Source: Candidatus Accumulibacter sp. ACC003 (GTDB taxonomy: Bacteria > Pseudomonadota > Gammaproteobacteria > Burkholderiales > Rhodocyclaceae). Taken from it: a stretch of 64,000 bases of DNA. Shown piece by piece: positions 17,316 to 54,404 of this stretch (positions are counted from its first letter, which is position 1; each line of letters begins with the position of its first letter). The stretch spans positions 518,428 through 582,427 of the forward strand of contig NZ_CAJQTX010000007.1 of the NCBI RefSeq assembly GCF_907163085.1, read 5' to 3'. A model generated the notes under the pieces. It was not told where the DNA came from. It searched no databases and was given only the letters and a program-made list of their open reading frames with translations. A program made the translations under genes and the position numbers.

Positions 17316-17364
17316 GTAAGTATTCGGCCAACCCGTAGCGCGCCAGCGCCATTGCCGAGGCGGG

Positions 17365-18222
17365 TTAGCGGCAGAGGACTGATCGGAAGGCTCTGTGAAG
17401 GGGGTAGAGCCAGATGTCCTTGATCGGGAGGATGGACTTGCTGGTGGGGCATTTCTTGCCTCGCCCGGCGGTTTGACCGACCTTGATCCAGTTGGCGGCC
17501 TGGTAGCAGGTGCCGCGATGGCGGGGCGTCTCGACGAAGGTTTCGAGCAGTACGGGGCGGTAGCCGTAGCGCGCCAGCCAGTCCTTGGGCAGTTGCCGCT
17601 GCATAAGCGAGAGGATCTTGGAGGCCAGGCCCTTGCACTGGATCCAGGGCAGGATCAGAAAGCGGGCATTGTTCACCACCAGTTGCAGGTTCCTTTGTCG
17701 CTGCTCATCGTGCCAACCGATGAATTGCTCGCGCGCGGCGAGTTTCCAGGCGCTGGCGCCGAAGCTGAGCAAGGCGACCAGGGTCTCGCCGGCGAAGACG
17801 AAGTAGCGGCTCTGACTGCCCGCCATGGGCGTGTGGCCGAGATAGTGGTAGCGGGCGATGTACTCGTTCCACAGACGCGAGTTCGCCGAACCGACGACCT
17901 GATGCAGACGCAGCGGCGGCAGTTCATGCACCGGCTGAGTGAGCAACGGTTGTGGATCGGTGGCGTGAGTAGGCAGATACTCGGGTTGGCGAGGAGCGGC
18001 CCGTCGTGCCGCCGGCAGGGTGAGCAGGCCGTCGGCCTGCATACGCAGCATGGCCACCCGGCAGGTCATATCCTTCAGCTCGCCATTGGGCTTACGCCAG
18101 TCGAAGAGCTCACACACCTGGCGCGACAGTTGCGCGCGGCTGCTGCCAGGATGGGCTTCGATCAGGCGGCAGAGGGCCTGCAGTTCGTCGTCGGTAAAGT
18201 GACGCCCGCAATAAGGCTTCAC
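17365..18222 (-). CDS. DUF4338 (DruA-like) protein carried by IS66 copy 1
   Basis: 285 aa. The conserved DUF4338 core is clear: RYHYLGHTPMAGSQSRYFVF, an EQFIGWHDEQRQRNLQLVV block, NARFLILPWI, LASKILSLM, LLETFVETPRHRGTCYQAAN and the Gly-rich VGQTAGRGK. An N-terminal helical region (ELQALCRLIEAHPGSSRAQL) looks like a winged-helix DNA-binding part. DUF4338 is the domain of DruA in the Druantia anti-phage system; no other Druantia gene is present. Its ATG overlaps the tnpC stop (ATGA), so the two are probably translated together. It stands where tnpA/tnpB accessory genes would be expected, suggesting a role in transposition or immunity. Confidence 0.88.
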   Translation of the reverse strand: MKPYCGRHFTDDELQALCRLIEAHPGSSRAQLSRQVCELFDWRKPNGELKDMTCRVAMLRMQADGLLTLPAARRAAPRQPEYLPTHATDPQPLLTQPVHELPPLRLHQVVGSANSRLWNEYIARYHYLGHTPMAGSQSRYFVFAGETLVALLSFGASAWKLAAREQFIGWHDEQRQRNLQLVVNNARFLILPWIQCKGLASKILSLMQRQLPKDWLARYGYRPVLLETFVETPRHRGTCYQAANWIKVGQTAGRGKKCPTSKSILPIKDIWLYPLHRAFRSVLCR

Positions 18223-19919
18223 GAGCTATCGATGGGACGGCTCTGATCGACCGGGATGCCACGCATCTGAGCCAGTCGATCGGTCGCCATCGCCCAGGGC
18301 AGAAAGGCACTCAAGTCCGTCGGCGGCAGGTTGCCGTTGGCGGCGCAGGCCTCCAGATACGCCGTCAGCCAGGTGCGCGGGTTGATTCCCCACAAGCGCA
18401 GCGTCAGCAGCAAGCTGAACATCGTCGCGGCGAGTGCGCCGGACCAGAGACTGCCCGACCCATAGAAGTTCTTGCGTGCGACCACCGGCGTGCGCTGTGC
18501 GCGCTCGGCGGCATTATTGTCCATCGCCACCTCGGGGCGGTCGACAAAGACGGTCAGGCCGGACCAATGTTTGCGCATGCTTCGCAGCACCTTGCTCGCC
18601 GGCATTTTGAGCGCCGGGTTCGCCAGTTCGCTTTCCCGTTGACTGGCCATTTGCGTGATCGCCTGCCGCAAGGCGCGGTCGCGTTCGGCCCACTGTACTG
18701 GGTCGCTACGGACTTCCAGGCGCCGTCCATTCAAGTGGTAGAGCTGAGCGATCTGCTCGACCCAGGCCAGTGCCCAGTCCGCGAGCTCCGGATGGGCGTT
18801 GGCCAGTTCCAGGAAATCACGCCGCTGATGTGCCCAGCAGAAAGCCAGAATGAAGTGGTCAAGGACTCGCGCGAGCTTCTTGTAGGCCGAATAGCGATCA
18901 CAGATGATGACTCCTCCGGCGCTACCGGAGAGCTCCCGGATCGGCACCGCCGCCGAGCGGCTCGGGTCGAGCACGAAGTGGATGACCGATGGGCCGTGGA
19001 ACACCCAGAAATACCAGCGATGTCCGACCTTCCCTTCGGTCTCGGCAAAGACCCGCCAGCGGGTCTCGTCTGCGTGCCACTGTTTCTCGCTGCGTAGTTG
19101 GCCAAGCAGTGCTTCTTCAAGCGGCTCGAACAGCGGTGCCAAGGCACGCAGTCCGCCGGCCACCGTTCCTGCCGAGAGCGTCAGTCCGTGGTCGGACAAG
19201 TCTCGCAGAAGCCGATGCGTCGGCTGGCCGTACAAGAACTTCGACAGCAGCAGGTGCACCCAGATCGACACGCCGTACTTTCCACGCGGGATCAATCGTG
19301 CCGGCGGTGGCGCGGTCAGAATACCCCGCGCGCCCGAACACTGACAGGTCCGCCGGTAGCGCCGCCGGCAGATCTTCCGGCGGTAGGCCTTGACCTCGAT
19401 CTCGAGGACTTCACTGTCTTCCGTGCCGGGAAAGTCGACGTAGCCCAGACCACAGTCCGGGCAATGCGGGCAGTCGATGTCGATGACCTCGATCTGCGTC
19501 GGCAAGTGACTTTCCGGGTTCCGCCCGTGACCCGCTGCTCCCGGTTGCTGACCTCGAGCTCGCGACGATTTTTGGTCCGCCGCCGGGTTCTTCTCGGCTC
19601 CCGAAGAGCGTTCTGACTTGCGACCAAACAGGCGTTTTTGCAGATCGCGGATCTTGCCCTTGGCCTGCTCCAGTTCGCTGCGCAAGGCCGCCTCGCGCGC
19701 CGCCGCTTGCGCCATTTCCACCCGATGAGCTGCCTCCGATTGCGCCAACCGAACCAGCGCTTGTCGATGTTGGCTCCGCCAGAAGCTGGCCTCCCAACGG
19801 AGCTTGATTTCCTGCTCCTTGGTTAGCGTCACCAACACCTCGGCGAACGGCGCCACTTGGCGGTGACTTGCCGCCGATCCTCCGCCAATGATGTCCGCAC
19901 CCGTGTCCATGCGCCGCAT
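18219..19919 (-). CDS. tnpC: IS66-family transposase TnpC, copy 1
   Basis: 566 aa. Order: N-terminal coiled coil (AAREAALRSELEQAKGKIRD), zinc-finger region (CPHCPDCG and further cysteines), then the DDE_Tnp_IS66 core with first Asp in WHADETRWRVF, second in VIICDRYSAYKKL, and the Glu in NNAAERAQRTPVVARKN. The C-terminal IS66 tail (NPRTWLTAYLEACAANG) is present. The frame is intact. It differs from copy 2 by a shorter coiled coil and scattered substitutions. Confidence 0.95.
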   Translation of the reverse strand: MRRMDTGADIIGGGSAASHRQVAPFAEVLVTLTKEQEIKLRWEASFWRSQHRQALVRLAQSEAAHRVEMAQAAAREAALRSELEQAKGKIRDLQKRLFGRKSERSSGAEKNPAADQKSSRARGQQPGAAGHGRNPESHLPTQIEVIDIDCPHCPDCGLGYVDFPGTEDSEVLEIEVKAYRRKICRRRYRRTCQCSGARGILTAPPPARLIPRGKYGVSIWVHLLLSKFLYGQPTHRLLRDLSDHGLTLSAGTVAGGLRALAPLFEPLEEALLGQLRSEKQWHADETRWRVFAETEGKVGHRWYFWVFHGPSVIHFVLDPSRSAAVPIRELSGSAGGVIICDRYSAYKKLARVLDHFILAFCWAHQRRDFLELANAHPELADWALAWVEQIAQLYHLNGRRLEVRSDPVQWAERDRALRQAITQMASQRESELANPALKMPASKVLRSMRKHWSGLTVFVDRPEVAMDNNAAERAQRTPVVARKNFYGSGSLWSGALAATMFSLLLTLRLWGINPRTWLTAYLEACAANGNLPPTDLSAFLPWAMATDRLAQMRGIPVDQSRPIDSS

Positions 19920-20039
19920 GGTGCCGGATTTCCGCTGCTGTGTCCAGTCCAGATTTCCGGTCTACCCGCCAATCGCTGACTGAACCACGCCGACCAAAAA
20001 AGCGGGGGCTACGGGTTCACCGAATACTTACAAAACTAC

Positions 20040-20672
20040 TTCGCGTACATGATGGAACATTATGATATTGATGGGCTTATCGAGTACGGAGACGAATCTC
20101 TTCCCGGCACTCACCAGGTCGTTAACCCCCGCTGGCGGGAACTCGACAAGGCCGTCAGGCAAACCCGCCAGAGCGAAAGAAAACTGCAGGCCGCAATCGC
20201 CAGGACGGCCTTGAACGACGGCGGCGAAATCCAGAAAAACGCCGAGTCTGTCGAAGCACTGCAGGCCGTTCAGGAGGAGCTCAAGCGACTTTGCGCGGCG
20301 CGCAAGGCAAGCCCCCGAAAGGTGACGATCGACAGTCTGCCCGAGGCCGAGCGACCGACCCAACTGCCGCCGCTGAACAAGATGCTCTGCGATACCGTGA
20401 AAATAGTCGCCTACCGGGCCGAGACCGCCATGGTGGCGCTATTGCGCCGCCACTTGAAGAAGGAGGACGACGCACGTGCGCTCATTCGCGAATTGTTCGT
20501 TTCTTCCGCTGACATCGAACCGAACGCGCTAGCCAACACCCTGACCATCAAAATTCACCGGATAGCCAGCCCAGCTCATGATCGCGCTATCGCCGCGCTC
20601 CTCGAGGAACTCACCCTGCAAGATTTTCCGCATCCGGAAACCGGGGCAAGAATGACCTTCACTCTTGTCTGA
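20040..20672 (+). pseudogene. transposase of the 2.4-kb IS, 3' part
   Basis: Continues the frame broken at 17315 and supplies the last 210 aa (FAYMMEHYDIDGLIEYGDE onwards), including a helical C-terminal region with many Lys and Arg. The stop lies 37 bp from the IS end. In the present sequence this part has only an internal ATG at 20049 and no ribosome site. Confidence 0.85.
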
Positions 20673-20709
20673 AGTGCCAACCCGGTTTCCTCCGAGATCA
20701 GGAAATCTG

Positions 20710-21270
20710 ACCTTGTACGGCTGGCCAGGATCGGCACCACCCTTCATGGGTCTGCTATTCCGAAACATGGAGGCAGCTACAGAGATTTTTTCTGAATGGA
20801 ACAACCGGTTTGGGCATGCAGACAAGGACGATGAGCTGCGTATCGCGATCATAACTGGAATCTCGAAGGCGAATCCGACCCACTATGCCTTAATCATTGG
20901 ACCCAATATCGACCGAATCGAGAGGACGCCGGAAATAAGCAAGACTTTTGTTTTGGTGTCGCGCGTTAACCGGATGACACCTGAGAGCACCAAGAATCTC
21001 GATGCTTTCCTGAAGGAGTTCGACAAATACGGCGCCTATTACCTAATGCCGGTCAAGCTGCCTGACAAGCCTGACGAAGTACCCCATCTGGAGTCCAAGC
21101 ACCATTTGCTCAAGGGGCATATCCATATCCGTCCTGCTTGGCAAATCGGCGAACACGATTTCGACATGGTGGCATTGGACGTAGACGAAGTCCCAGTCAT
21201 TCCCGACGGGATCACTGACGCGCCGGTGCTCAAAGCGATGGCGCGAAAGCGGGAGCGGTCAGGCAAGTAG
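20710..21270 (+). pseudogene. 3' part of the interrupted nuclease-like gene
   Basis: After the second ACCTT copy the frame reads LYGWPGSAPPFMGLLFRNME, exactly continuing WGGT of the 5' part. It encodes the last 185 aa: a mixed alpha/beta segment (RIAIITGISKANPTHYALII, FVLVSRVNRMTPESTKNLDA) and a basic end (KAMARKRERSGK). I do not recognise the fold. An accidental frame extends 15 codons upstream into the IS end, but expression would need a promoter in the IS. Confidence 0.82.
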
Positions 21271-21479
21271 GGTAGTACCCAAACGTGCATCGGCATTCAC
21301 GAGACTGCGATACAGCAACAAGGGCGCGTTCTCAGGTTGGCGCCACCCGGGCGAGACGCTCACTCTTGATCAATAGTTCGTGTTCGCTCAATCCGCAGGT
21401 CGAGCCGATGCTGGCGCTGCGCCGGGCGCCGGGCGCCGGGCTCCGGGCTCCGAGCTCAGGCCAAGGTCCTGGGCCCTAC

Positions 21480-21850
21480 TGAGAGTCTGATCGCCGAATC
21501 GGGCCTCGGCAGCAAGAAAAACATCCAGGTGCGCAAGGCAGCCAGCATCGAACGGTTGATTGCACTGACTCGTAACGAGCACCATCCGGACTCGCTGGAG
21601 CGGCACAGCTGCCGGAGAGTGCAACACCCGTGTAGGTCCTGTCTGTCGCATCGCTTGGAGGCGCAAGCGGGACGAGTGCTATACGCCTCGCGCAAGCAGG
21701 CGGTTGAGCCGGTCTTTGGTATCATCAACTTGTTCATCGATTTTTCCGGTTCGCGCTACACGGTTTGAAAAAAGCTACGACGGAGTGGACGGTGATCTGC
21801 TTGGCGTGAACTTGAAGCGCATGGCCAAATCGAGCCTTCAGTAGGGAAGA
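21480..21850 (+). pseudogene. IS1182-family transposase remnant
   Basis: Plus-strand translation gives AGRVLYASRKQAVEPVFGII, the C-terminal signature of IS1182-type transposases. It is followed, after frame breaks, by KKATTEWTVICLA and NLKRMAKSS, which match the usual W-x-L-x-C-x-A-x-N-x-K-R-x end. Several stops and frameshifts show it is long dead. No inverted repeats were found. Confidence 0.65.
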
Positions 21851-22152
21851 ACGACGGGGGAATCACCGAAAAAGCTAGCGAACCCGACGAAAGCTGGCCG
21901 CCGTATTCGACAACCTGAAAGCTGATCGTTTTCCCTAGGCCAACTCCAACAGGCTGCCAACCGCCGGATGCCCGCCGCACGTTCAGCGCCTGCCGGCCGG
22001 CAGCTTTATGATCAGCAAGCCGCCATTGAGTATGATAAATTCCTCAGGCAGCTTTGGGTCGTCAGCACTCGATGATGAATGGCCGCTTCCGGGAAGCGAA
22101 GCTTCACTGACCGCTTTCCGGCGACGAAGTCGACGAGAGGTCGGTCGCATCA

Positions 22153-22595
22153 CGACCCCTATGCGCAGTTCACAACTATGTGCAGGACGGATAGGGGACC
22201 CGAGCGAGATTGAGGCAGGGCAAGGCGCCAGGACAAGGTGCTCAAGAAAAATATGGACATAGTTTCCGCAGCCGCGCGCACAGCCACGCACTCGGACCAG
22301 GCCAACGCTCTGCTCAAGCTGTTCGTTATCGACTTGAAAGCTCAAGCGCAGTTCAGGTCCCGGTACTCTGCGTCGTCAGGCTTTGGGATAAAAAAGAGAG
22401 GACTACGATCCCAGACGCCACAATCTTAAGTTGAAACGAATCTGCCCATGACGCTTTCATGCAATTCCAGCGAACGCCAAAACTATGTCCAGCACACCCG
22501 TCTGAAAGGCTGCCAGGGCATCGAATGTGGGACCAACTGTGCATAGTTGAGAACTGCGCATAGGGGTCGCTATGGAAATCTTTGCATAGCGACCC
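22153..22595. repeat. nested inverted repeats with a terminal hairpin
   Basis: Outer arms at 22153-22180 and 22542-22569 are 28 nt with one mismatch (start CGACCCCTATGCGCAGTT). Inner arms at 22255-22265 and 22480-22490 are a perfect 11-nt pair (GGACATAGTTT). The right side continues into a perfect 11-bp hairpin (22564-22574 with 22585-22595, GGGTCGCTATG). The interval has no clear gene. It could be a small non-autonomous transposable element or an IS scar. Confidence 0.6.
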
Positions 22596-22665
22596 GTTGC
22601 AGTCATCAGCGCTACAAGGAAGCGGTCGTCCAGCGCAACTGATGAGACGGAGGCGAATAAGCGAC

Positions 22666-22694
22666 TTGCCAAATTTTGCCAAGAAGCCTAGTCT
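22666..22694 (+). promoter_or_regulatory. candidate sigma70 promoter of the ParDE-type operon
   Basis: TTGCCA (22666-22671), 17-nt spacer, TAGTCT (22689-22694). The direct repeat TTGCCAA occurs twice from the -35 box onward and could be an antitoxin binding site. Transcription would start close to the ATG at 22701, so translation may begin there with little leader or at the ATG at 22710. Confidence 0.4.
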
Positions 22695-22700
22695 GCGTCC

Positions 22701-22952
22701 ATGAGCACAATGAATATTTCCTTGCCCGACAGCCTGAAGTCCTTCGTGGACGAGCAGGTGAGCGAACGTGGCTACGGCACCAGTAGTGAGTACGTGCGCG
22801 CATTGATCCGCAAGGATCAGGATCGTCAGCACTTGCGTGGTTTGTTGTTGGCCGGCGTAGCTACTGCGCCGACGTCGCCGGCTGATGCCGCCTACTTCGA
22901 AAGTCTGCGTGGCCGGGTACACAAAGCCGCCAAGTCGGTTTCTCGCGGGTGA
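22701..22952 (+). CDS. type II antitoxin, ParD-like (ribbon-helix-helix)
   Basis: 83 aa. The N-terminus MNISLPDSLKSFVDEQVSER with GYGTSSEYVRALIRKDQDR is the ParD/CopG ribbon-helix-helix pattern, which binds its own promoter and masks the toxin with its C-terminal tail. The ATG at 22701 or, three codons later, 22710 may be used; the family normally begins at the second Met. Its TGA overlaps the GTG of the next gene (GTGA), as expected for an antitoxin-toxin pair. Confidence 0.9.
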   Translation: MSTMNISLPDSLKSFVDEQVSERGYGTSSEYVRALIRKDQDRQHLRGLLLAGVATAPTSPADAAYFESLRGRVHKAAKSVSRG

Positions 22953-35828: not shown

Positions 35829-35913
35829 GCCCAGGTGGCGAAATTGGTAGACGCAGCAGGTTTAGGTCCTGCCGCCGCAAGGTGTGGGGGTTCGATTCCC
35901 TTCCTGGGCACCA
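35829..35913 (+). tRNA. tRNA-Leu (TAG)
   Basis: 85 nt with encoded CCA. Acceptor GCCCAGG pairs with CCTGGGC, discriminator A, anticodon loop TTTAGGT with anticodon TAG, a long variable arm (class II) and T-loop GGTTCGATTCC. A P4-type integrase gene begins about 160 bp downstream, so its 3' end is the probable attachment site of an integrative element. Confidence 0.96.
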
Positions 35914-36026
35914 AAGAACAGTCCAAAGCAATCCAAGATATGGCAAATACTCTATTAAATACAAGGAGTTTTGCTTTTCTTTGTCCACGAAAGACCCGGT
36001 CTGTCTATTGCAATCCGGAATCTTTT

Positions 36027-36075
36027 GGGGGCACAATCGGGGGCATATTGCTTTTGGCAGATCAAGGATGCCCCC
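36027..36075 (+). promoter_or_regulatory. GGGGGCA repeats before the integrase gene
   Basis: Two direct copies of GGGGGCA (36028-36034 and 36041-36047) and one inverted copy TGCCCCC (36069-36075) that touches the integrase ATG. Evenly placed repeats next to an integrase start are likely integrase or excisionase binding sites, or an autorepressor site. No experiment is implied. Confidence 0.45.
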
Positions 36076-37287
36076 ATGCCCCTAACGGACGTCACCCTTC
36101 GCAACGCCAAGCCAAGCGACAAACCTGTTCGAATGTTTGACGGTGGCGGGCTGTACGTGGAAATCGCACCCAGCGGTGGGAAGCTGTGGCGGTTGAAATA
36201 TCGGTTTGATGGAAAAGAGAAGCGGCTGTCCTTGGGGGTATACCCCGATGTGAGCTTGAAGGATGCCAGGGAACGTCGGGACGCAGCACGGAAGCTCTTG
36301 GCCAACGACGTTGACCCCGGCGTGACTCGGAGGGCGCAAAAAGCTGCGCGGGTGGAACGGTCAGTAAACACCTTCGAGGTCCTGTGCCGCGAATGGCTTG
36401 ATCAACGCAAAGGCACAGTGGAACCCGCACAGCACGTCAAAACGTTGGCACGGATGGAGAACGACGTCTTCCCTTGGTTGGGGGCGAAGGCAACTTCCGA
36501 GATTACAGCTCCCGACGTGCTCAGCGTGTTACGCCGAATCGACGAACGCGGTGCGCGCTACACAGCGCATCGAGTGCGCAGCGAAATCAGTCGGGCATTC
36601 CGATACGCGATCGCCACCGGCCGTGCTGAACGCGACCCTTGCCCAGATCTGAGGGGCGCAATACCAGCCCCAAAGGCTGAACACTTCGCGGCCATCACGA
36701 CGCCAACGGAGGTTGCTGCGCTCATGCGGGCGATCGACGCTTTCCGGGGGACATTCGTGGTCAAGAGCGCTTTGCTGCTCGCCCCCATGTTGTTCGTTCG
36801 CCCTGGCGAGTTGCGCCGGGCAGAATGGTCGGGGTTCGACTTGGACAAGGGTGAATGGCGTTATCTGGTAACGAAAACCAAGACTGAGCACCTTGTTCCA
36901 CTTGTGCCTCAATCCGTGGCGATTCTGCGTGAACTGCGCGCTCTGACCGGGCGCGGACGATACGTTTTTCCGGGACGGGATCCGCAGAAGGCAATGAGCG
37001 ACGCTGCGATTAATGCCGCCTTGCGGAGGATGGGGTACGACACCAGAACCGAGATCACGGGGCATGGTTTTCGGGCGATGGCGCGGACGATCCTCCACGA
37101 GGAATTACTCATCAAACCCGAAGTCATTGAACATCAGCTTGCCCATTCGGTACCTGACGCTTTGGGCACCGCCTACAACCGTACAAGGTTCTTGAAAGAG
37201 AGACGGGTAATGATGGAGCAATGGGCCGACTATCTGGACAGATTGAAGACGGGGCCGGCGGTCGTGGCCATAGCGACGGCAGTGTGA
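36076..37287 (+). CDS. int: P4-type tyrosine recombinase (integrase)
   Basis: 403 aa from MPLTDVTLRNAKPSDKPVRM, the standard start of the DUF4102 arm-binding domain (SGGKLWRLKYRFDGKEKRLS). The core-binding domain follows, then the catalytic domain: Arg in PGELRRAEWSGFD, Lys in VTKTKTEHLVPL, His-x-x-Arg in GHGFRAMARTI, His in HQLAHSV, and the nucleophile Tyr in GTAYNRTRFLKER. All catalytic residues are present. It catalyses site-specific integration and excision at the adjacent tRNA-Leu. An upstream in-frame extension of 35 codons overlaps the repeat boxes and is not used. Confidence 0.93.
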   Translation: MPLTDVTLRNAKPSDKPVRMFDGGGLYVEIAPSGGKLWRLKYRFDGKEKRLSLGVYPDVSLKDARERRDAARKLLANDVDPGVTRRAQKAARVERSVNTFEVLCREWLDQRKGTVEPAQHVKTLARMENDVFPWLGAKATSEITAPDVLSVLRRIDERGARYTAHRVRSEISRAFRYAIATGRAERDPCPDLRGAIPAPKAEHFAAITTPTEVAALMRAIDAFRGTFVVKSALLLAPMLFVRPGELRRAEWSGFDLDKGEWRYLVTKTKTEHLVPLVPQSVAILRELRALTGRGRYVFPGRDPQKAMSDAAINAALRRMGYDTRTEITGHGFRAMARTILHEELLIKPEVIEHQLAHSVPDALGTAYNRTRFLKERRVMMEQWADYLDRLKTGPAVVAIATAV

Positions 37288-38528: not shown

Positions 38529-38693
38529 TAATTCCTGTGAAAACAGATAGTTGGCAAGCCCGTTAATTACTTTAGCATATGAAGGGCGTCATACAATTAC
38601 CCTTTATAAACAATACGTTACAGCGCAATTATGCAATGAAAATGGTAAGTATTCGGCCAACCCGTAGTGAGCCAGCGCCGTTGGCGAGGCCGG

Positions 38694-39551
38694 TTAGCGG
38701 CAGAGGATTGATCGGAAGGCTCTGTGAAGGGGATAGAGCCAGATATCCTTGATCGGGAGGATGGGCTTGCTGGTGGGGCACTTCTTGCCTCGGCCGGCGG
38801 TTTGGCCGACCTTGATCCAGTTGGCGGCCTGGTAGCAGGTGCCGCGATGGCGGGGGGTCTCGACGAAGGTTTCGAGCAGCACGGGGCGGTAACCGTAGCG
38901 CGCCAGCCAGTCCTTGGGCAGTTGCCGCTGCATGAGCGAGAGGATCTTGGAGGCCAGGCCCTTGCACTGGATCCAGGGCAGGATCAGAAAGCGGGCATTG
39001 TTCACCACCAGTTGCAGGTTCCTTTGTCGCTGCTCATCGTGCCAACCGATGAATTGCTCGCGCGCGGCGAGTTTCCAGGCGCTGGCGGCGAAGCTGAGCA
39101 AGGCGACGAGTGTCTCGCCGGCGAAGACGAAGTATCGGCTCTGACTGCCGGCCATGGGCGTGTGGCCGAGATAGTGGTAACGAGCGATGTACTCGTTCCA
39201 CAGACGCGAGTTCGCGGAACCGACGACCTGTCGCACCGAGAGAGGCGGCAGTTCATGCACCGGCTGAGTGAGCAAGGGTTGTGGATCGGTGGCGTGCGTG
39301 GGCCGATACTCGGGTTGGCGAGGAGCGGTCCGTCGTGCAGCCGGCAGGGTGAGCAGGCCGTCGGCTTGCATGCGCAGCATGGCCACCCGGCAGGTCATAT
39401 CCTTCAGCTCACCATTGGGCTTGCGCCAGTCGAAGAGCTCGCACACCTGACGCGAGAGTTGTGCGCGGCTGGCGCCGGGAGGGGCCTCGATCAGGCCGCG
39501 GATCGTCTGCAGTTCGTCGGCGGTAAAGTGGCGCCCGCAATAAGGCTTCAC
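38694..39551 (-). CDS. DUF4338 (DruA-like) protein carried by IS66 copy 2
   Basis: 285 aa, nearly identical to the copy 1 protein. All DUF4338 blocks are intact (RYHYLGHTPMAGSQSRYFVF, FIGWHDEQRQRN, NARFLILPW, LLETFVETPRHRGTCYQAAN). Differences cluster in the N-terminal part (LQTIRGLIEAPPGASRAQL here) and in the middle linker. The ATG overlaps the tnpC stop, as in copy 1. Conservation of an intact frame in both copies argues that the protein is useful to the element. Confidence 0.9.
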   Translation of the reverse strand: MKPYCGRHFTADELQTIRGLIEAPPGASRAQLSRQVCELFDWRKPNGELKDMTCRVAMLRMQADGLLTLPAARRTAPRQPEYRPTHATDPQPLLTQPVHELPPLSVRQVVGSANSRLWNEYIARYHYLGHTPMAGSQSRYFVFAGETLVALLSFAASAWKLAAREQFIGWHDEQRQRNLQLVVNNARFLILPWIQCKGLASKILSLMQRQLPKDWLARYGYRPVLLETFVETPRHRGTCYQAANWIKVGQTAGRGKKCPTSKPILPIKDIWLYPLHRAFRSILCR

Positions 39552-41284
39552 GAGCTATCGATGGAAGGTGTCTGATTGACCGGGATGGCACGCATCTGGG
39601 CCAGACGATCGGTCGCCATCGCCCAGGGCAGAAAGGCGCTCAAGTCCGCTGGCGGCTGGTTGCCGTTGGCGGCGCAGGCTTCCAGATAAGCCGTCAGCCA
39701 GATGCGCGGGTTGATTTTCCACAAGCGCAGCGTCAGCAGCAGGCTGAACATCGTCGCGGCGAGAGCGCCGGACCAGTGACTACCCGACCCATAGAAGTTC
39801 TTGCGTGCGACCACCGGCGTACGCTGGGCGCGTTCGGCGGCATTATTGTCCATCGCCACCTCGGGGCGGTCGACAAACACGGTCAAGCCGGACCAATGCT
39901 TGTGCATGCTTCGCAGCACCTTGCTCGCCGGCATTTTGAGCGCCGGGTTTGCCAGTTCGCGTTCGCGCTGACTGGCCATCTGCACGATCGCCTGCCGCAA
40001 GAGGCGGTCGCGTTCGGCCCACTGTACGGGGTCGCTACGGACTTCCAGGCGCCGTCCATTCAAGTGGTAGAGCTGAGCGATCTGCTCAACCCAGGCCAGT
40101 GCCCAGTCCGCGAGTTCCGGATGGGCGTTGGCCAGTTCCAGGAAGTCACGCCGCTGATGTGCCCAGCAGAAGGCCAGAACGAAGTGGTCAAGGACTCGCG
40201 CGAGTTTCTTGTAGCCCGCGTAGCGATCACAGATGATGACGCCTCCGGCGCTACCGGAGAGTTCCCGGATCGGCACCGCCGCCGAGCGGCTCGGGTCGAG
40301 CACGAAGTGGATGACCGATGGGCCGTGGAACACCCAGAAATACCAGCGATGTCCGACCTTCCCTTCGGTCTCGGCAAAAACCCGCCAGCGAGTCTCGTCC
40401 GCGTGCCACTGTTTCTCGCGACGCAGTCGGCCAAGCAGTGCTTCTTCAAGCGGCTCGAACAGCGGTGCCAAGGCACGAAGTCCGCCGGCCACCGTTCCTG
40501 CCGAAAGCCTCAGTTGGTGGTCGGACCAGTCTCGTAGAAGCCGATGCGTCGGCTGGCCGTACAAGAACTTCGACAGCAGCAAGTGCACCCAAATCGACAC
40601 GCCGTACTTTCCACGCGGGATCAATCGTGCCGGCGGTGGCGCGGTCAGAATGCCGCGGGCGCCCGGGCACTGACAGGTCCGCCGGTAGCGCCGCCGGCAG
40701 ATCTTCCGGCGGTAGGCTTTGACCTCGATCTCGAGAACTTCACTGTCTTCTGTGCCGGGAAAGTCGACGTAGCTCAGACCACAGTCCGGGCAATGCGGGC
40801 AGTCGATGTCGATGACCTCGATCTGCGTCGGCAAGTGGCTTTCCGGATTCCGCCCGTGACCCGTTGCTCCCGGTTGATGACCTCGACCCCGCGACGACTT
40901 CTGGTCTGCTGCCGGGTTCTTCTCGGCTCCCGAAGAGCGTTCTGACTTGCGACCAAACAGGCGTTTTTGCAGATCGCGGATCCGGCCCTGGGCCTGCTCG
41001 AGCTCGCTACGCAAGGCCGCCTCACGCGCCGCCGCTTGCTCCGCCGCACGCGCCGCCGCTTGCTCCGCCGCACGCGCCATTTCCACCCGATGAGCGGCCT
41101 CCGATTCCGTCAAACGGACCAGCGCTTGCCGATGTTGGCTGCGCCAGAAGTTGGCCTCCCAACGGAGCTTGATTTCCTGCTCCTTGGTCAACGTCACCAA
41201 CACCTCGGCGAACGGCGCCACTTGGCGGTGACTTGCCGCCGATCCTCCGCAGATAATGTCCGTAGCCGTGCCCATGCGCCGCAT
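39548..41284 (-). CDS. tnpC: IS66-family transposase TnpC, copy 2
   Basis: 578 aa from MRRMGTATDII, matching the copy 1 start; the frame is open 26 codons further up to the IS end. It has the same zinc-finger and DDE motifs as copy 1 (WHADETRWRVF, CDRYAGYKKL, NNAAERAQRTP). The N-terminal coiled coil is longer because of two 24-bp units encoding AAEQAAAR. Intact and possibly active. Confidence 0.95.
   Translation of the reverse strand: MRRMGTATDIICGGSAASHRQVAPFAEVLVTLTKEQEIKLRWEANFWRSQHRQALVRLTESEAAHRVEMARAAEQAAARAAEQAAAREAALRSELEQAQGRIRDLQKRLFGRKSERSSGAEKNPAADQKSSRGRGHQPGATGHGRNPESHLPTQIEVIDIDCPHCPDCGLSYVDFPGTEDSEVLEIEVKAYRRKICRRRYRRTCQCPGARGILTAPPPARLIPRGKYGVSIWVHLLLSKFLYGQPTHRLLRDWSDHQLRLSAGTVAGGLRALAPLFEPLEEALLGRLRREKQWHADETRWRVFAETEGKVGHRWYFWVFHGPSVIHFVLDPSRSAAVPIRELSGSAGGVIICDRYAGYKKLARVLDHFVLAFCWAHQRRDFLELANAHPELADWALAWVEQIAQLYHLNGRRLEVRSDPVQWAERDRLLRQAIVQMASQRERELANPALKMPASKVLRSMHKHWSGLTVFVDRPEVAMDNNAAERAQRTPVVARKNFYGSGSHWSGALAATMFSLLLTLRLWKINPRIWLTAYLEACAANGNQPPADLSAFLPWAMATDRLAQMRAIPVNQTPSIDSS
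41026..41080 (-). repeat. 24-bp tandem repeat in tnpC of IS66 copy 2
   Basis: Two units containing GCCGCTTGCTCCGCCGCACG, absent from copy 1, extend the coiled coil by AAEQAAAR units. Confidence 0.75.
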
Positions 41285-41655
41285 GGTGCCGGATTTCCGC
41301 TGCTGTGTCCAGTTCAGATCTCCGGGCTGCCCGCCAATCGCTGACGGAAGCTCGCCCACCAAAAAAACCGGGGCTACGGGTTCACCGAATACTTACTGAA
41401 AATGGGCAGCATTCAAGCCGCGGTCGGAACTATGCATTTATGCTAAGTTGAGAGGATTGCCGTGCTTACCGGGACGGGCGGAGGACAGAGGCTCCGGTCG
41501 GAGCGATTTGATCGCGAAGCGGATTACACGTTTCTCGGCCTGGTCCAGCCAATCCGCGGTGATGTCGACGGCGGCGGCGATCATTGCGCTGATCACCAGC
41601 AAAGAGGCCACGTTCAGCCGTATTAGCCCTCTTTCCCAAAACCGCGTCCGTTCCT

Positions 41656-43506: not shown

Positions 43507-43508
43507 AG

Positions 43509-47744: not shown

Positions 47745-49394
47745 ATGCGCCTGAGCAAGCATGATCTTTTCCAGATGGACGACGAGTGGCTGAAGAAGCT
47801 GCCGGCCGAGCTGTTGCTGGAAGTATCGAAGCGACTGCTGCACGACGTCAAGGCATTGCAGGATCAGCTGAATAAAAATCCGGGCAACAGCTCGCGGCCG
47901 CCGAGTACAAAGCCACCGTGGGAGAAGGCACGCGACCCAGACGTGAAGAAAGGCGTGCCAGCCGAGGCTGCCGCGGGCGCTGGCGATGGTGCTGCCGATG
48001 GCGCTGCCGATGGCGCTGCCGATGGTGCTGGCGATGGTGCTGCCGATGGCGCTGCCGTCACGGCAGACGGCCCGGCGCCGGCGAAAGAAACTGCCCCCCC
48101 GGCGACCGAGGAGTGCCCATTGCCCGGAGAGGACTCGGGGAAGCGGCCGGGCAAGCAAGTTGGCAGTCCGGGCCATGGTCGCACGCAGAAGCTGGCGGTT
48201 ACTGACAGTCGCGCGCACCGACCCGAGCACTGCGCGGCTTGTGGTGGCGCCCTGGCGGAGGATGCCGAGTCGCAGGCTTACACCGCCTGGGACGAGATCG
48301 ACATCGCGCCACCGGTCGAGGGCAGCATTGGGCTAACGTTCAGCGTCACGCGTCACACGCTGCTTGAAGTGCGCTGCGCCTGCGGGCACGTCAGCCGTGC
48401 CCGGCCTTGGCGGGCGCCGCCCGACGCCCAGTGGGAAAAGGTTGAGCTCGGTGAATGGCGCTTGGTGGGTCCTCGCCTGGCCGGCGTGATCGTTCTGCTC
48501 GCGCTGCGAATGCGCCTGTCGCGAGCGAGCATTCGCGAGCTCCTGCGGGAAGTCTTCGACCTCACGCTGAGCACCGGCGTGATCGATGAGACGATCCGCG
48601 AAGCGGGTCGTGCCAGCTTCCCGCTGGAGGACGCCCTGGTGGACGATATCGTGCAGGTGGCGCAGTTGCACATCGATGAAACGTCGTGGCCGGAATCCGG
48701 CGCGCTGTTGTGGTTGTGGGCGCTGGTCAGTCCCTCTTCGGTGCTCTACCTCATCGGCCCACGCACCCGGGAGATGCTTGAGAACGCCCTGCAAGACGGC
48801 TATACCGGCATTCTCGTCAGCGATGGTTACGCGGTCTACCGCAACTGGGAAAACCGCCTGCGCTGCTGGCCGCACCTGATGCGCAAGCTGCGGGGGCTGG
48901 CCGAATCGAGTGATGGCCGGGTGTCCCGGGTTGGGCAGGAGATGGAAGGTCTTCTGACAGCGCTGATGGCGGCCATCTACGCGGCGCGGCTCGATCCGCC
49001 GCCGCAAGCGCTACCCGAGCGCTACGCCGCCGAGGTCGAACGGCTGCGACACCTGTGCGAGGTGCATCGGACGGATCAACATCCGGCCCTGCGCAGTGTC
49101 GTGCGCGAATTCCTTTACGACTGGAAAGTCATCCTGCGTCCGCTCGCGGAGCCCCTGTTGCCGCTGTCCAACAACGCCGCCGAACGGGCGTTGCGACACT
49201 GGGTCATTTCACGCCGCATCAGTCACGGCACCCGTTCCGAAGCGGGATCCCGCGCCTTCGCCCTCCTGGCCAGCGTCATCGAGACCTGCCGCCGCCGCGG
49301 CGCCTCCGCGTGGCAGTACCTCGGCACCGTCATCGCTGCCGCTCGCAAAGGCTTACAGCTTCCCGCGCTCCCTGCTATCCCGGCTGCGGCATAG
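47745..49394 (+). CDS. IS66-family transposase (single-gene element)
   Basis: 549 aa. The N-terminal helix (LLEVSKRLLHDVKALQDQLN) is followed by NPGNSSRPPSTKPPW, typical of IS66, then an Ala/Asp/Gly linker made of 12-bp repeats, a zinc-finger region (CAACGG and CACGH cysteines) and the DDE core: Asp in LHIDETSWPESGALL, Asp in ILVSDGYAVYRNW, and the Glu in LSNNAAERALRHWVISRR. The frame is intact. It is only distantly related to the two DUF4338-carrying IS66 copies. Confidence 0.92.
   Translation: MRLSKHDLFQMDDEWLKKLPAELLLEVSKRLLHDVKALQDQLNKNPGNSSRPPSTKPPWEKARDPDVKKGVPAEAAAGAGDGAADGAADGAADGAGDGAADGAAVTADGPAPAKETAPPATEECPLPGEDSGKRPGKQVGSPGHGRTQKLAVTDSRAHRPEHCAACGGALAEDAESQAYTAWDEIDIAPPVEGSIGLTFSVTRHTLLEVRCACGHVSRARPWRAPPDAQWEKVELGEWRLVGPRLAGVIVLLALRMRLSRASIRELLREVFDLTLSTGVIDETIREAGRASFPLEDALVDDIVQVAQLHIDETSWPESGALLWLWALVSPSSVLYLIGPRTREMLENALQDGYTGILVSDGYAVYRNWENRLRCWPHLMRKLRGLAESSDGRVSRVGQEMEGLLTALMAAIYAARLDPPPQALPERYAAEVERLRHLCEVHRTDQHPALRSVVREFLYDWKVILRPLAEPLLPLSNNAAERALRHWVISRRISHGTRSEAGSRAFALLASVIETCRRRGASAWQYLGTVIAAARKGLQLPALPAIPAAA
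47975..48060 (+). repeat. 12-bp coding repeats in the transposase linker
   Basis: About six imperfect copies of GGCGCTGCCGAT or close variants encode GAAD/GAGD units. A slippage-prone linker between the N-terminal helix and the zinc-finger region. Confidence 0.75.
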
Positions 49395-49552
49395 GGGGAG
49401 TGAACGATTACAAACTTTGGGCGAGAACTCCACCTGTCCCCGTCCTACGTTATGCGGCAGGCGCAAGTTGCCAACCCTGACGAAGCGATTGAAGTCGGCT
49501 AGCCCGGCCGTCGGCGGCACTGCGGTCTGGCAATCGGGGAGCGCCGTCCAGT

Positions 49553-50488
49553 ATGCGTGATGCAAGCACCTGGGGAGGCATCTCTACGGCGCTCGCCATG
49601 CTGTCGGTCGCGGTCGTCGCCCTGCTCACCATCAATCACCTAATTCGCCGCAGCCTGGCCGCGCCGCGCGTTGCCGAAAGCGGGGTTCCCGACGGACTGC
49701 CGTGGCGCCAGGTGGCGTTCTCCAGCGTGCGCGGAAAGACTCTGTTTGGCTGGTTCATCCCGGCCGGCGAATGCGCACCGGCACTGGCAATTCTGCATGG
49801 CTGGGGTGGCAACGCCGAAATGATGTTGCCGCTGGCCAAGCCCCTGCACGCAGCAGGCTACGCCCTGCTCTTCTTCGACGCACGCAGCCACGGCCGTAGC
49901 GATGGCGACACCTTCGCTTCCCTGCCACGCTTTGCCGAAGATCTGGCGCACGCGGTCGATTGGTTGCGCGCCCAGGTGGACGTCGATGCATGCCGAGTCG
50001 GTGTCATCGGGCATTCCGTAGGGGCGGCAGCGGCTTTGCTGCTCGCCAGCCAACGACAGGACCTGGTCGCCGCCGTGACGCTGGCCGCTTTCGCCGATCC
50101 GGCAGCGATCATGCGGCGCTGGCTGAAAGCGCGGCGGATTCCCTATTGGCCGCTGGGGGCCTACATTCTGTACTACGTCCAGCACGTCATCGGCCATCGT
50201 TTCGCGGACATCGCACCCTGCCACACCATCCGCGCGGCAAGCTGCCCGGTGCTGCTCGTACACGGCACCGACGACGAAACGGTACCGGTCAGCGAAGCGC
50301 AGGAAATTTTCGCCAGGCGCCGTGATGAGCGGGTACGCTTGCTGCTGATCCCTGGTAGCCATGATCAGTACGGGGAAATGGAGCGCCACTTTGAAACGGT
50401 GATCGACTTTCTGGACGCTGCCACAAGACCATTTGCCGACCGACACGGCGAAGGATTCTCGCCACCAACAACAGGAGATGCAAGGTGA
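49553..50488 (+). CDS. membrane-anchored alpha/beta hydrolase
   Basis: 311 aa. An N-terminal membrane helix (LAMLSVAVVALLTINHLI) anchors the protein. The hydrolase fold follows: AILHGWGGNAEMM (oxyanion site), VGVIGHSVGAAAALL (GHSVG nucleophile elbow), LLVHGTDDETVPVSEA (Asp) and PGSHDQYGEM (His). It is similar in type to YqkD/BEM46-like peptidase-fold proteins; the substrate is unknown. The stop overlaps the GTG of the next gene. Confidence 0.88.
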   Translation: MRDASTWGGISTALAMLSVAVVALLTINHLIRRSLAAPRVAESGVPDGLPWRQVAFSSVRGKTLFGWFIPAGECAPALAILHGWGGNAEMMLPLAKPLHAAGYALLFFDARSHGRSDGDTFASLPRFAEDLAHAVDWLRAQVDVDACRVGVIGHSVGAAAALLLASQRQDLVAAVTLAAFADPAAIMRRWLKARRIPYWPLGAYILYYVQHVIGHRFADIAPCHTIRAASCPVLLVHGTDDETVPVSEAQEIFARRRDERVRLLLIPGSHDQYGEMERHFETVIDFLDAATRPFADRHGEGFSPPTTGDAR

Positions 50489-50904
50489 AGAAGCGCTACT
50501 GGATAATCATCATCCTGCTGTTGCTCGTTGGTCTCGACTGGGTAATCCGCGCGCCCGATTCGCGTTCTCGCCAGCTGACGGCAGTCATTGCGGCGCAGGG
50601 CAGCGCGAAGCTGCAGAGCTACCCCTACCAGTTCCGGGTCCTGAAAGTAACTGGCGAAACGGCGTTCATCAGTACGCCGCGCAACGTCCAGGTACCGGCG
50701 TTCAAGGCACTAGCCGTTCTCTATCCGGAAATCGATACCAAGAACGCCAACGATCCGGCGTTCATCGCCGCGCAAACGCTGCTCGGCGAAGTACAAGCTG
50801 AAGCGCGCGCGATCGTCCTCGCGCAGCCCGGGATCAAGGACGCGCGCTGGGAACTTGATCGTGAGTGGCTCGCCGCGCACCATATCGAAGTGCCCGAGAG
50901 GTAA
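50485..50904 (+). CDS. hypothetical membrane-anchored protein
   Basis: 139 aa, GTG start overlapping the hydrolase stop (GTGA), with GGAGATG upstream. One N-terminal membrane helix (YWIIIILLLLVGLDWVI), then a small soluble domain (SYPYQFRVLKVTGETAFIST, AFKALAVLYPEIDTKNANDP). I do not recognise it. The coupling suggests it works with the hydrolase at the membrane. Confidence 0.75.
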   Translation: MKKRYWIIIILLLLVGLDWVIRAPDSRSRQLTAVIAAQGSAKLQSYPYQFRVLKVTGETAFISTPRNVQVPAFKALAVLYPEIDTKNANDPAFIAAQTLLGEVQAEARAIVLAQPGIKDARWELDREWLAAHHIEVPER

Positions 50905-51029
50905 TTTCCAGCGCGGCAAGCGCGAAGACGCGGCGTGCTCGCTGCTGCCACGGATGGCTGCAGAAACCATTCTGGGATGCTGCGCTGTGGGTTTCAGCAC
51001 AACGATTGATGACCGGGGATATTCGTTCA

Positions 51030-51222
51030 ATGAGTCCGGAAGCGATGTGGCGCAATCGTTACCACGAAGCTGGCGAACAATATTTGTTTGGCACAGAACC
51101 GCTTCCTGGCGCACCGAGCAAGACTGCTGCAGGACGGACGAAGGGCGGTGTCGCTCGCCGAGCAGGGTCTCGAGGTCATTCATCAGGATCCGAGGCTGCT
51201 GATCGCCGACGAGAGCGATTGA
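51030..51222 (+). pseudogene. SAM-dependent methyltransferase remnant
   Basis: The first frame reads MSPEAMWRNRYHEAGEQYLF then GTEP. It continues in another frame as NRFLAHRARLLQDGRRAVSL then AEQGLEVIHQ, ending at a stop. Together they match the start of small class I methyltransferases (YxxxxxxYxxGTEPNxFL). A frameshift and loss of the SAM-binding part make it dead. Confidence 0.6.
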
Positions 51223-51525
51223 CGTCAGCGCCTCTTCAACGATTTTTTGCGGCGCCAGCGTTTCCGCCAGCGGCGGACTGCAGCAGCGGGTGGCCGTCGC
51301 GGGCTGGGAAGACGCCGTGGTGGTGGTCGAGATGACGACACTCGAAAAGAAATTCGTCCAGAGCTACCAGAGCGATGGCGGGAATGGACAACTCGTCATC
51401 TCCTCCGTGGCACAGGTTTCGGAAGGGCAGCCGGTTTCATACCCCCTCGTATATGACCGGCTCAAACCTGACCTAGGTGAGAAACAGGCGCGCCGGAACG
51501 TCAGCGCGGGACAAGGAGGAACGCG
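51223..51525. other. gap with an unidentified frame
   Basis: A frame at 51290-51529 reads VVVVEMTTLEKKFVQSYQSD then GNGQLVISSVAQVSEGQ; it has no good start and is not recognised. It may be a remnant. GACAAGGAGG at its end is the ribosome site of the next gene. Confidence 0.35.
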
Positions 51526-52024
51526 ATGAACATCCATTATCTGCAGCACGTGCCGTTCGAAGGACTCGGAAGCATCGAGGAGTGGATTCGGCGCGGTGGG
51601 CACGCACTCGGCGCAACGCGCCTCTACCGTGGCGATCCCCTGCCAGGCATCCACACGGTGGATCTGCTGGTGGTGTTGGGCGGCCCCATGAACATTTACG
51701 AAGAGGCTGACTACCCCTGGCTGGTGAACGAGAAGCGCTTCATCGAACGGGCCATCGCCGCCGGCCGGCGCGTGCTCGGCATCTGCCTCGGGGCGCAGTT
51801 GGTTGCCGATGTGCTTGGCGCAAGGGTCTACGCCAACGCCGACAAGGAGATCGGCTGGTTTCCGGTCGAAAAGACGGAGGCCGTCTCTGGCGACGGCCTG
51901 TTTGAAGCCTTCCCACGGCAAATCGATGTGTTCCACTGGCATGGCGACACCTACGACATTCCGACCGGCGCGGTGCGTGCCGCTCGGAGCGCCGGCTGCG
52001 CGAACCAGGCCTTCGTCTACGACG
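51526..52024 (+). pseudogene. class I glutamine amidotransferase, 5' part (split by an IS)
   Basis: MNIHYLQHVPFEGLGSIEEW with AAGGAGG upstream. VVLGGPMNIYEE and the nucleophile elbow RVLGICLGAQLVADVLG (Cys) are present, then HWHGDTYDIP. The frame is native to FVYD at 52024, then enters the IS and stops at 52131. Joined to 54415-54647, it would give a 243-aa GMP-synthase-like amidotransferase. The Cys nucleophile is now separated from its His-Glu partners, so it cannot be functional. Confidence 0.88.
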
Positions 52025-54404
52025 CTGGTCTTTACCCACACTTGAGTCCGTCACTGCCTATGGCGACTGTGAGGGCGGCAGATAGCCGTCGGGGTAGGAG
52101 CGCCAAGTCGTGGGAGGAGCAGAGCGGGTGAAGAGGACATACATCTGTGTCGCCGTATCGAGCAGCTGCAAGGCACGCCAGAGCACTTGCGGACCCGGCG
52201 GGCCGTCGCGGCGGCGGCCGAGGTGTCCGCCGATGGCGCCGAGCATGCGAGTCGCCTCGGCCATGCTGGGCGGCTCAGCCGGGGTCAGGGTGGTCTGGTG
52301 GTGATAGCAGTACAAGGCCTTCCATTCCACCTCCTCGAAGAAGGCGGTACAGGGGTGGTCGGGCATCTCCCGGCCAAGCATGGCCAAGTGGTAGATGCGC
52401 CACGCGACGACCATATCCACCCCCAGGCAAGCCTGCAAGCGTGTCGCACTGCCCAGTTGGCGGTCCTTGATGCGGCAGCCACTCTTGAGGGTGCGATGGA
52501 AGACCTCGATCCGCCAGCGCGCGGCATACCATTCGGTGCGCTCGACCGCCTCCGCGAAGGTCGTCACCGGGACGGTCGTCAGCAACATCCACTCGATCGG
52601 CTCGCCGTCGTCGGCGGCGGCGCCTTCAAGCAGATGGACAGCCCAGGCGCCGACGGACGGCAGCGCACTGTTCTTGGGCGCTTGCAGCGTCACCTCGGAG
52701 AAGCGCAGCGTGAGCTGCGCCTGACGCGCGCTGCGCTTTCCGCGCCGGGGCAACTGCAGCGTGAGTTCGCCGGCAAGCGCCTGGCGGCTCATGAAATCCC
52801 ACAGCGCTTCGTCCTCCACCCGCCGCGCGCGGGTGCGCTCGGCGCGCACCAACAGCTTGGGCCCTGCCGCATCGCGCGCGGCCAGGGCGAACAGATCGAA
52901 GACGTCGGCCTCGCGATCACCCATGCTCACCAGTTGCGTCTGCGGACACAGTGCCTGGATCTCGGCGAGCCTGGCGAAGCTCTTGAGCCACTTCATGCTC
53001 TCCTTCTTCTCGATCGGCAAGTCCTTGCGCTTCTGGCTCTTGCCCTTGTCGTCGGCATCGCGCGCCCAGCATTGCGCATCGAGAATACCCAGCGGCGTCC
53101 CCTCGACACTGAAGGCCAGCGTGTCGTGCAGCAGCAGGCCGGTGGATTGATCGCGCTGGGTGTTGACCGGCCCCAGCCCGTCGGTCGCGGGATGGTGGGA
53201 ATAGTTGAGCGTCGTCGTATCCTGCGGCGCCAGGACGACGCGGTGTTGCCGGATGCGCTCGATGGTGCTCTCGATGTGAGGCGTCAGGATGACCTGCATG
53301 TTCACCTTGGCGTTCTTGAAGAAACGATACGCCGCGACCGTGCGGGCCCGGGCGCCACAGGCTTCGGGGATACTCGCCTGCGAGTGATGATAGAAATCCT
53401 GGGCAATGGCACACAGGCGCTCTTTGAGCCGTCCATCGTACCAGCGGACACTGGCGAATTCCTCTGCGGCCCAGTTGGCGGGCGCCTCTGGCCGCGGCGG
53501 GGGAGCCAGACGCAGCGCCGGTGCGGCACACAGTTGCGCCTTCCAGCGCGCAGCGAGCGGATAGAGGAAGATGCGTTTTTCTACCCCATCGCGCCGGCCC
53601 GACGTCGCGCCGACGTCGATCCAGTTGGCCGCGCGATAGCAACCGCCAGTAAAGCGCGTCGGATCGACGAAAGTTTCGAGCAACAGCGGACGCGTGCCAT
53701 AACGCGCCTCCCAGTCCGCCGGCAGACGGCGGCTGGCCATCCCCAGCACATGCGAGGCCAGATTCGGCACCTCGACCCCTGGCACGATCAGAAAGCGGGC
53801 ATTGGCCACGATCCGGTGCAGGTTGTGGCGGCGGGCCGCTTCCTCCCAGCCGATATACGTATCCCGCTTGTGCAAGGCCCAACTGGCCGAGGTGAAGGCG
53901 AGACCGCCCAGCCAGCCGTAGTGTTCACTGCGGATCAGGTAGCGCAATTGCGCGCCACACAGCGGTTTGTCACCCAGGTAGTGATGCCGCTCCATCAGCA
54001 CCCGCCAGCGTTGCGCGTTTGGGCTGCGGGAAGCGCCGACGGCGACCAGTTCGATTGCGCCAAGCGCTTCGAGCGAGGCGCAGACGCTGACCTCGGCCAC
54101 TTCCAGATCCGGCTGCCGCCGTGGCGCAAACGGGGCCGCCGCGCGGGGAAGTTCGACGACTTGGCGCTGCGCCAATTGCGCCAAGGCCTTCCGACAGCCG
54201 CCTTCCTGCCAGGCACCCGCAGGCGTGCGCCAGTCGAGCCACTCGCACACCCGACGCGACAGCGCGCGGCGCGAGATCTCCGGCACCGAGGCCACCAGTT
54301 CCCGCAGGCGCTCCAGGATGTCAAGGGAGAATTCTTGGCCGCAGACTCGCATGGCCCTACAGTAGGCCGTCGCGGCGACGGAGTCAAGTGTGTGCTAAGA
54401 CCAG
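52025..54404 (-). mobile_element. IS4/Tn5-like insertion sequence with a DUF4338-transposase fusion
   Basis: Inverted ends start CTGGTCTT and share CACACTTGA (52025-52045; reversed 54404-54384). The 10-bp duplication GTCTACGACG (52015-52024 and 54405-54414) restores the amidotransferase frame when one copy is removed. The length is 2,380 bp with one gene. Confidence 0.93.
52058..54352 (-). CDS. fusion of DUF4338 (DruA-like) and an IS4/Tn5-type transposase
   Basis: 764 aa. Residues about 1-280 are a full DUF4338 domain: RHHYLGDKPLCGAQLRYLI, RDTYIGWEEAARRHNLHRIV, NARFLIVPGV, LLLETFVDPTRFTGGCYRAA. From about 293 comes the Tn5-type DNA-binding region (NWAAEEFASVRWYDGRLKER, ARTVAAYRFFKNAKV), then DDE residues in APQDTTTLNYSHH, VSMGDREADVFDLF and the Glu of WRIEVFHRTLKSG. 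The C-terminal Tn5-like dimerisation region follows. The frame is unbroken with no internal stop, so the fusion is real in this sequence. DUF4338 is otherwise a separate gene in IS66 elements in this window. Confidence 0.92.
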   Translation of the reverse strand: MRVCGQEFSLDILERLRELVASVPEISRRALSRRVCEWLDWRTPAGAWQEGGCRKALAQLAQRQVVELPRAAAPFAPRRQPDLEVAEVSVCASLEALGAIELVAVGASRSPNAQRWRVLMERHHYLGDKPLCGAQLRYLIRSEHYGWLGGLAFTSASWALHKRDTYIGWEEAARRHNLHRIVANARFLIVPGVEVPNLASHVLGMASRRLPADWEARYGTRPLLLETFVDPTRFTGGCYRAANWIDVGATSGRRDGVEKRIFLYPLAARWKAQLCAAPALRLAPPPRPEAPANWAAEEFASVRWYDGRLKERLCAIAQDFYHHSQASIPEACGARARTVAAYRFFKNAKVNMQVILTPHIESTIERIRQHRVVLAPQDTTTLNYSHHPATDGLGPVNTQRDQSTGLLLHDTLAFSVEGTPLGILDAQCWARDADDKGKSQKRKDLPIEKKESMKWLKSFARLAEIQALCPQTQLVSMGDREADVFDLFALAARDAAGPKLLVRAERTRARRVEDEALWDFMSRQALAGELTLQLPRRGKRSARQAQLTLRFSEVTLQAPKNSALPSVGAWAVHLLEGAAADDGEPIEWMLLTTVPVTTFAEAVERTEWYAARWRIEVFHRTLKSGCRIKDRQLGSATRLQACLGVDMVVAWRIYHLAMLGREMPDHPCTAFFEEVEWKALYCYHHQTTLTPAEPPSMAEATRMLGAIGGHLGRRRDGPPGPQVLWRALQLLDTATQMYVLFTRSAPPTTWRSYPDGYLPPSQSP

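Follow-up and report, generated by a model that had tools for sequence, protein, structure and literature searches.

Insertion sequences of the window

The window analysed in this study, a 64,000-nucleotide stretch of the genome of Candidatus Accumulibacter sp. ACC003, contains three insertion sequences (ISs) that encode a domain of the Pfam family PF14236 (DUF4338): two elements of the IS66 family (A1 and A2) and one element of the IS4 family (B). Their coordinates, and those of their open reading frames (ORFs), are presented in Table 1, where the DUF4338 genes are described as Mom-like with reference to the Mom protein of phage Mu. ISs are usually viewed as a transposase placed between two repeats; A1 and A2 contain only tnpC and a DUF4338 gene, and B contains one fused gene. 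The PF14236 scores lie far above the cut-off (27 bits) in all three elements, so that a chance match is not an issue.

Table 1. Elements with a DUF4338 domain and their ORFs (positions within the window; IRs, inverted repeats; aa, amino acids).
Feature	Position	Strand	Description
A1, IS66 element	17316..20031	(-)	2716 bp; IRs 21/23; exact 8-bp target duplication AAAACTAC
DUF4338/PF14236 Mom-like gene of A1	17365..18222	(-)	285 aa; GTG start; PF14236 140.7 bits
tnpC of A1, IS66 transposase	18219..19919	(-)	566 aa; PF03050 201 bits; NF033517 302.1 bits
A2, IS66 element	38645..41396	(-)	2752 bp; IRs 21/23; exact 8-bp target duplication TGAAAATG
DUF4338/PF14236 Mom-like gene of A2	38694..39551	(-)	285 aa; PF14236 138.7 bits
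tnpC of A2, IS66 transposase	39548..41362	(-)	NF033517 296 bits
B, IS4/Tn5-type element	52025..54404	(-)	2380 bp; 28-bp IRs, 24 matches; exact 10-bp duplication GTCTACGACG
Fusion ORF of B	52058..54352	(-)	764 aa; PF14236 122.0 bits; NF033590 407.3 bits

A1 and A2 were classified within the IS66 family based on TnpC scores above the NCBIfam cut-off (NF033517, 180 bits), terminal IRs (GTAAGTATTCGG..., with 21 of 23 bases inverted) and 8-bp duplications. Element B was placed in the IS50/Tn5 group of the IS4 family, whose duplications measure 9-12 bp, by its transposase score (cut-off of NF033590, 160 bits), its IRs and its 10-bp duplication. A1 is inserted into a PF21804 transposase gene, PF21804 matches being present on both flanks, and B into a GATase gene.

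In both IS66 elements the DUF4338 gene is located downstream of tnpC, and its GTG start codon overlaps the tnpC stop codon as GTGA. The true start of tnpC in A2 probably lies inside the ORF, downstream of the TTG at 41362. A first-pass annotation of this DNA had predicted two IS66 elements with an intact DUF4338 gene; both proved to be complete elements with an intact gene, but the overlap is not the ATGA reported there. The gene had also been assigned to the place of tnpA and tnpB, which has to be corrected: in classical IS66 elements these two genes precede tnpC, whereas the DUF4338 gene is transcribed after it. In A1, where 112 bp separate the tnpC start from the element end, neither tnpA nor tnpB was found upstream of tnpC. 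Part of the IS66 family lacks both genes, and the elements of the ISBst12 group contain tnpC only. A1 and A2 resemble this group in having tnpC without tnpA and tnpB, and in their 8-bp duplication, but in A1 and A2 tnpC is followed by a Mom-like gene to which it is translationally coupled.

The in-frame fusion of DUF4338 to a transposase, predicted for the IS4/Tn5-like element, was confirmed. The product contains (i) the Mom-like DUF4338 domain (residues 107-253), (ii) Tnp_DNA_bind (293-350), (iii) the IS4 transposase (340-738) and (iv) the Tn5 dimerisation domain (648-731). It therefore shares the Tnp_DNA_bind, DDE and Tn5 dimerisation domains of IS4/Tn5 (IS50) transposases, from which it differs by about 290 extra N-terminal residues holding the Mom-like module.

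A third IS66 transposase is encoded at 47745-49394 (+) (PF03050, with a weak DUF6444 match). None of the three PF14236 domains of the window adjoins it, and the DUF4338 gene is thus optional in this family.

Distribution and exchange of transposase partners

A profile search of the 5.39-Mb genome revealed PF14236 matches at 83 places. These were sorted into types according to profile range and frame length, one or more representatives of each type being checked in Pfam, and comprise 32 matches of the IS66 type, the single IS4 fusion of B, three of a second IS4-type fusion (L034, L037, L033), 25 of a first ISAs1 type, 19 of a second ISAs1 type and three fragments. The recruitment of DUF4338 by two transposase families, as first proposed, was thus correct but understated, since at least five element types carry the domain. 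In the first ISAs1 type it forms one ORF with DDE_Tnp_1_assoc, and a following ORF, which overlaps the first in another frame, encodes the DDE domain; in the second (L032) it has an ORF of its own that precedes the transposase. The DDE_Tnp_1_assoc group is what we take to be ISAs1, in agreement with the annotation on a plasmid; in databases such proteins are named "ISAs1 family transposase" or "DUF4338 domain-containing protein". In the representative of the first type, L031:2226-4012 (-), the DUF4338-transposase ORF and the DDE ORF overlap by 37 bases, which looks like a programmed frameshift in an element of about 25 copies.

IRs with matching flanks were identified in six copies belonging to the first ISAs1 type (flanks of 8-12 bp) and in three belonging to the second (9-12 bp), so that the DUF4338 gene is part of the mobile unit. 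For the second IS4 type, inverted ends were present in two copies, in which no target duplication was found. The genome encodes 29 TnpC relatives aligning over at least 550 of the 566 residues. All 29 have a DUF4338 gene downstream on the same strand, at an equal distance in 28 cases, and 20 of them are identical as proteins, which is a recent burst. The nearest named relatives of the IS66-borne DUF4338 gene are also from Accumulibacter (L043, L049).

Outside this genome, PF14236 was detected in 17 of 398 genomes of the same phylum, and in 19 of 199, 19 of 199 and 29 of 249 genomes of the phyla of L101 (Acidobacteria), L095 (Planctomycetia) and L106 (Lentibacillus), respectively, each count including the genome at the centre of the draw. 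Without the centre genomes there were at least 153 matches, and 86 regions were taken for analysis. The complete Arenicellales chromosome OY282380 contains 52 matches.

The first-pass annotation had called for a tree of DUF4338 that included DruA of the Druantia system. In the unrooted tree of 182 rows, 18 (12 full-length Druantia-type genes, five split ones and L274) are separated from the 164 others by a long branch with a support of 100; the transposon and Druantia proteins therefore form two clades. The 86 regions divide into the same 18 and 68 loci of the transposon clade. In 55 of these 68, a transposase-like partner is either fused to the domain in one ORF or encoded on the same strand at a distance of no more than 420 bases, and in none of the 68 is the only partner antisense. 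The partners belong to IS66 (18), ISAs1 (13), IS4 (12), IS4_1 (2) and IS701 (2), with single cases of ISKra4, IS1634, the DUF772 group, four other DDE groups and one group that Pfam did not match. In 17 cases the domain precedes the transposase in a fused ORF, and in the others it is encoded by a separate gene (upstream in 33, downstream in five). Of 10600 random intervals drawn in the 68 regions at least 1.5 kb from the domain, 1452 were equally close to a labelled transposase; this rate is too high, since the partner itself may extend over such a distance. The same kind of partner was found for 67 of the 80 closest relatives in named genomes.

A few loci have other neighbours. In L117:2548-6005 and L120:534-3972 a transposon-clade gene follows, at a distance of some hundreds of bases, an ORF of 700 aa (with a weak radical SAM match in L120), and no transposase was recognised at either locus. 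In L122 and L325, again without a recognised transposase, the gene adjoins an ORF of 350 aa that matches AAA_13 weakly; these two loci may represent a unit of another kind. In L108:3940-7214 a large ORF resembling beta-CASP nucleases is preceded by a DUF4338 gene with an internal stop.

Within the transposon clade, the partner labels require 18-20 changes on the tree. The approximately unbiased (AU) test, performed on 60 dereplicated rows, rejected a single clade for the IS66 (p = 2.0e-6), IS4 (p = 0.003) and ISAs1 (p = 0.004) partners, which means that partners have been swapped repeatedly; the support for exchange within each family, when taken branch by branch, is weaker. Close relatives may have unlike partners: L056 (IS66) and L073 (another DDE transposase) are 66% identical, L290 (IS4) and L087 (ISKra4) 63%, and L057 (IS4, with the gene behind the transposase) and L063 (IS66, with the gene in front) 61%. 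Taken together with the label changes and the AU tests, these pairs demonstrate that the DUF4338 gene was acquired or swapped many times among unrelated DDE transposases. The independent recruitment proposed earlier is thereby borne out and extended to at least six named IS families. The outcome that had been specified as contradicting it, one recent clade spread by recombination, was not observed: the IS66 and IS4 domains of the window are 41% identical and fall in different supported sets.

The DUF4338 gene is under purifying selection, like the transposase. Between A1 and A2 the ratio of nonsynonymous to synonymous divergence (dN/dS) is 0.146 for the DUF4338 gene and 0.185 for tnpC. In comparisons with L043, L045, L046 and L048 the values are 0.15-0.26 and 0.16-0.29, respectively, these four being the computable elements, as the synonymous distance was saturated for four more.

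Relationship with Mom and DruA

The protein of A1 is predicted to adopt a GNAT fold (model pLDDT of 91.5), preceded by an N-terminal domain that is weakly helix-turn-helix-like. The best re-scored structural match of the window protein was Mom of Mu, a phage that itself transposes, and comparison with the Mom family (PF25680) by hhalign gave a probability of 94.3% (E = 9.5e-8). The Mom crystal structure (PDB 8bv8), named a methylcarbamoylase in its entry, is that of the inactive mutant S124A, the altered residue being Ser114 in the numbering of the 231-residue Mom used here. This residue is aligned to Ser201 of the window protein in both alignments. In the profile alignment, His48-Tyr49, Arg101, Asp139 and Tyr149-x-Ala-x-Asn of Mom correspond to His126-Tyr127, Arg187, Glu231 and Tyr240-x-Ala-x-Asn244, respectively, and a Gly position is also aligned.

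These positions are highly conserved in the transposon clade (rows with gaps omitted): His126 in 163/163 rows, Arg187 in 162/164, Ser201 in 162/164, Glu227 in 163/163, Glu/Asp231 in 153/163 and Tyr240 in 160/162, with Tyr127 in only 138/163. The named loci had been found by patterns including Arg187 and Tyr240, and the residues were therefore recounted in the 63 rows of the draws alone. The result was 63/63 for His126, Arg187 and Glu227, 62/63 for Ser201 (one Thr), 59/63 for Glu/Asp231, 62/62 for Tyr240 and 50/63 for Tyr127.

The window proteins share with Mom the GNAT fold, the aligned residues and their location on DNA that transposes. They differ in having an extra N-terminal domain and in being borne by ISs, often fused to a DDE transposase. 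The two IS66 copies match PF25680 with 18.2 and 15.2 bits, below the cut-off of 27.1 bits, and the IS4 fusion has no listed match, so that by the Pfam cut-off the DUF4338 protein is not a member of the Mom family; Mom is nevertheless the protein that it would most resemble in its action.

The equation of DUF4338 with DruA of Druantia, made in the first-pass annotation, is correct as regards the common Pfam family and misleading beyond it. DruA of Druantia type I (PADLOC PDLC00001, PDLC00002) is related to the window proteins with a profile-profile probability of 96.8%, but it forms the separate clade described above. In all 18 rows of that clade the position of Arg187 is occupied by Val or Thr and that of Ser201 by Gly (17) or Ala (1), in a well-aligned motif. 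None of the 18 loci had a transposase partner within 600 bases on either strand in the Pfam or PADLOC scan of some of their neighbours. PADLOC assigned 14.6-18.2 bits to the window proteins, compared with 304-701 bits for five checked Druantia-type rows, and called DruA in six checked members of the Druantia clade (five full-length, one split). DruE adjoins L288, the sole helicase checked, while neither DruE nor other Dru genes were found in the three elements of the window. Judging by tree, residues and neighbours, the window protein is not a Druantia DruA. The split Druantia-type DruA of L263, L264, L265, L335 and L336 is encoded by frames of 700-1300 aa and has its own supported clade; L265 was assigned to PDLC00001.

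A GNAT domain fused to DndF, as described in PMC10853773, is also annotated as DUF4338. It has the same Pfam label and fold, on which alone the two were compared, but belongs in that description to a phosphorothioate-linked defence protein and not to a transposon.

Possible role in transposition

We favour the view that the DUF4338 protein is a transposon-borne, DNA-modifying relative of Mom, with a GNAT fold, a Mom-type active site and a small N-terminal helical domain that possibly binds DNA; we give it a probability of about 0.5. Such a protein would transfer a group to DNA, most likely to adenine, as Mom does. Its target may be the DNA of the element and the intermediates of transposition, or the DNA of the cell at large; the transposase fusions and the translational coupling favour a role at the transposing DNA. 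The benefit might be protection from host nucleases or a marking of DNA that favours transposition: the element could protect itself on entering a new host, its cut ends could be guarded during transposition, or methylation-sensitive steps could be affected. Any one of these benefits is less probable than the Mom-like modification as such. Mom is described as shielding Mu DNA against restriction (PMC6483171).

Other functions of a GNAT protein were also considered. It might acetylate the transposase or host DNA-binding proteins and so tune transposition, but the conserved residues are those of Mom, which also gave the best re-scored structural match and a strong profile match, and we regard this as unlikely. 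Less probable still is a catalytically dead GNAT domain acting as a DNA-binding or targeting accessory. The weakly helix-turn-helix-like N-terminal domain and the position of the fused module before the DNA-binding domain of a transposase would suit this role, although near-invariant active-site positions in very divergent rows, as noted above for Ser201, are not expected of a dead enzyme. Equally improbable is a passenger gene for the modification of RNA or small molecules, with no role in transposition, given the repeated association with DDE transposases and the in-frame fusions to them. We give least credence to a gene of the toxin or addiction type that would secure the maintenance of the element in its host. 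GNAT toxins acting on charged tRNA exist, and the copy number of the elements is high; however, besides tnpC and the DUF4338 gene the 2.7-kb IS66 elements have no space for another gene of ordinary size, a toxin fused to a transposase would be difficult to regulate, and the conserved residues follow Mom.

DNA modification of the Mom type thus remains our preferred function, and the analysis suggests that transposons may chemically modify DNA, aiding their own movement or survival. A wider scenario is more tentative, with odds that we place well short of even: at least six DDE families would have repeatedly acquired one Mom-type enzyme and coupled it to transposition as a DNA hypermodification arm of their own, DruA being a later relative in which the Mom-type site was lost. 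The forms of coupling observed are a separate gene upstream or downstream of that for the transposase, an in-frame fusion and an apparent frameshift fusion. Druantia may have taken the domain from mobile DNA, as had been proposed earlier; the data, in which the transposon clade provides the link to Mom, are in keeping with this, but the tree is unrooted.

A conserved enzyme exchanged among unrelated transposase families would imply a common, so far unexplained need, and the resemblance to Mom narrows the question to the presence of a modified base. If this reading is correct, transposons possess a phage-like counter-defence based on DNA modification, the "DUF4338/DruA" annotations need to distinguish a Mom-like transposon clade from that of Druantia, and it becomes possible to study where DruA originated. 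Among the titles and abstracts of open-licence papers, we found none that links DUF4338/DruA or Mom to ISs, and no earlier description of Mom-like modification enzymes as parts of these elements.

Elsewhere in the window, positions 35829-37287 contain a tRNA-Leu gene directly followed by a phage-type integrase gene, which is probably the start of a genomic island.

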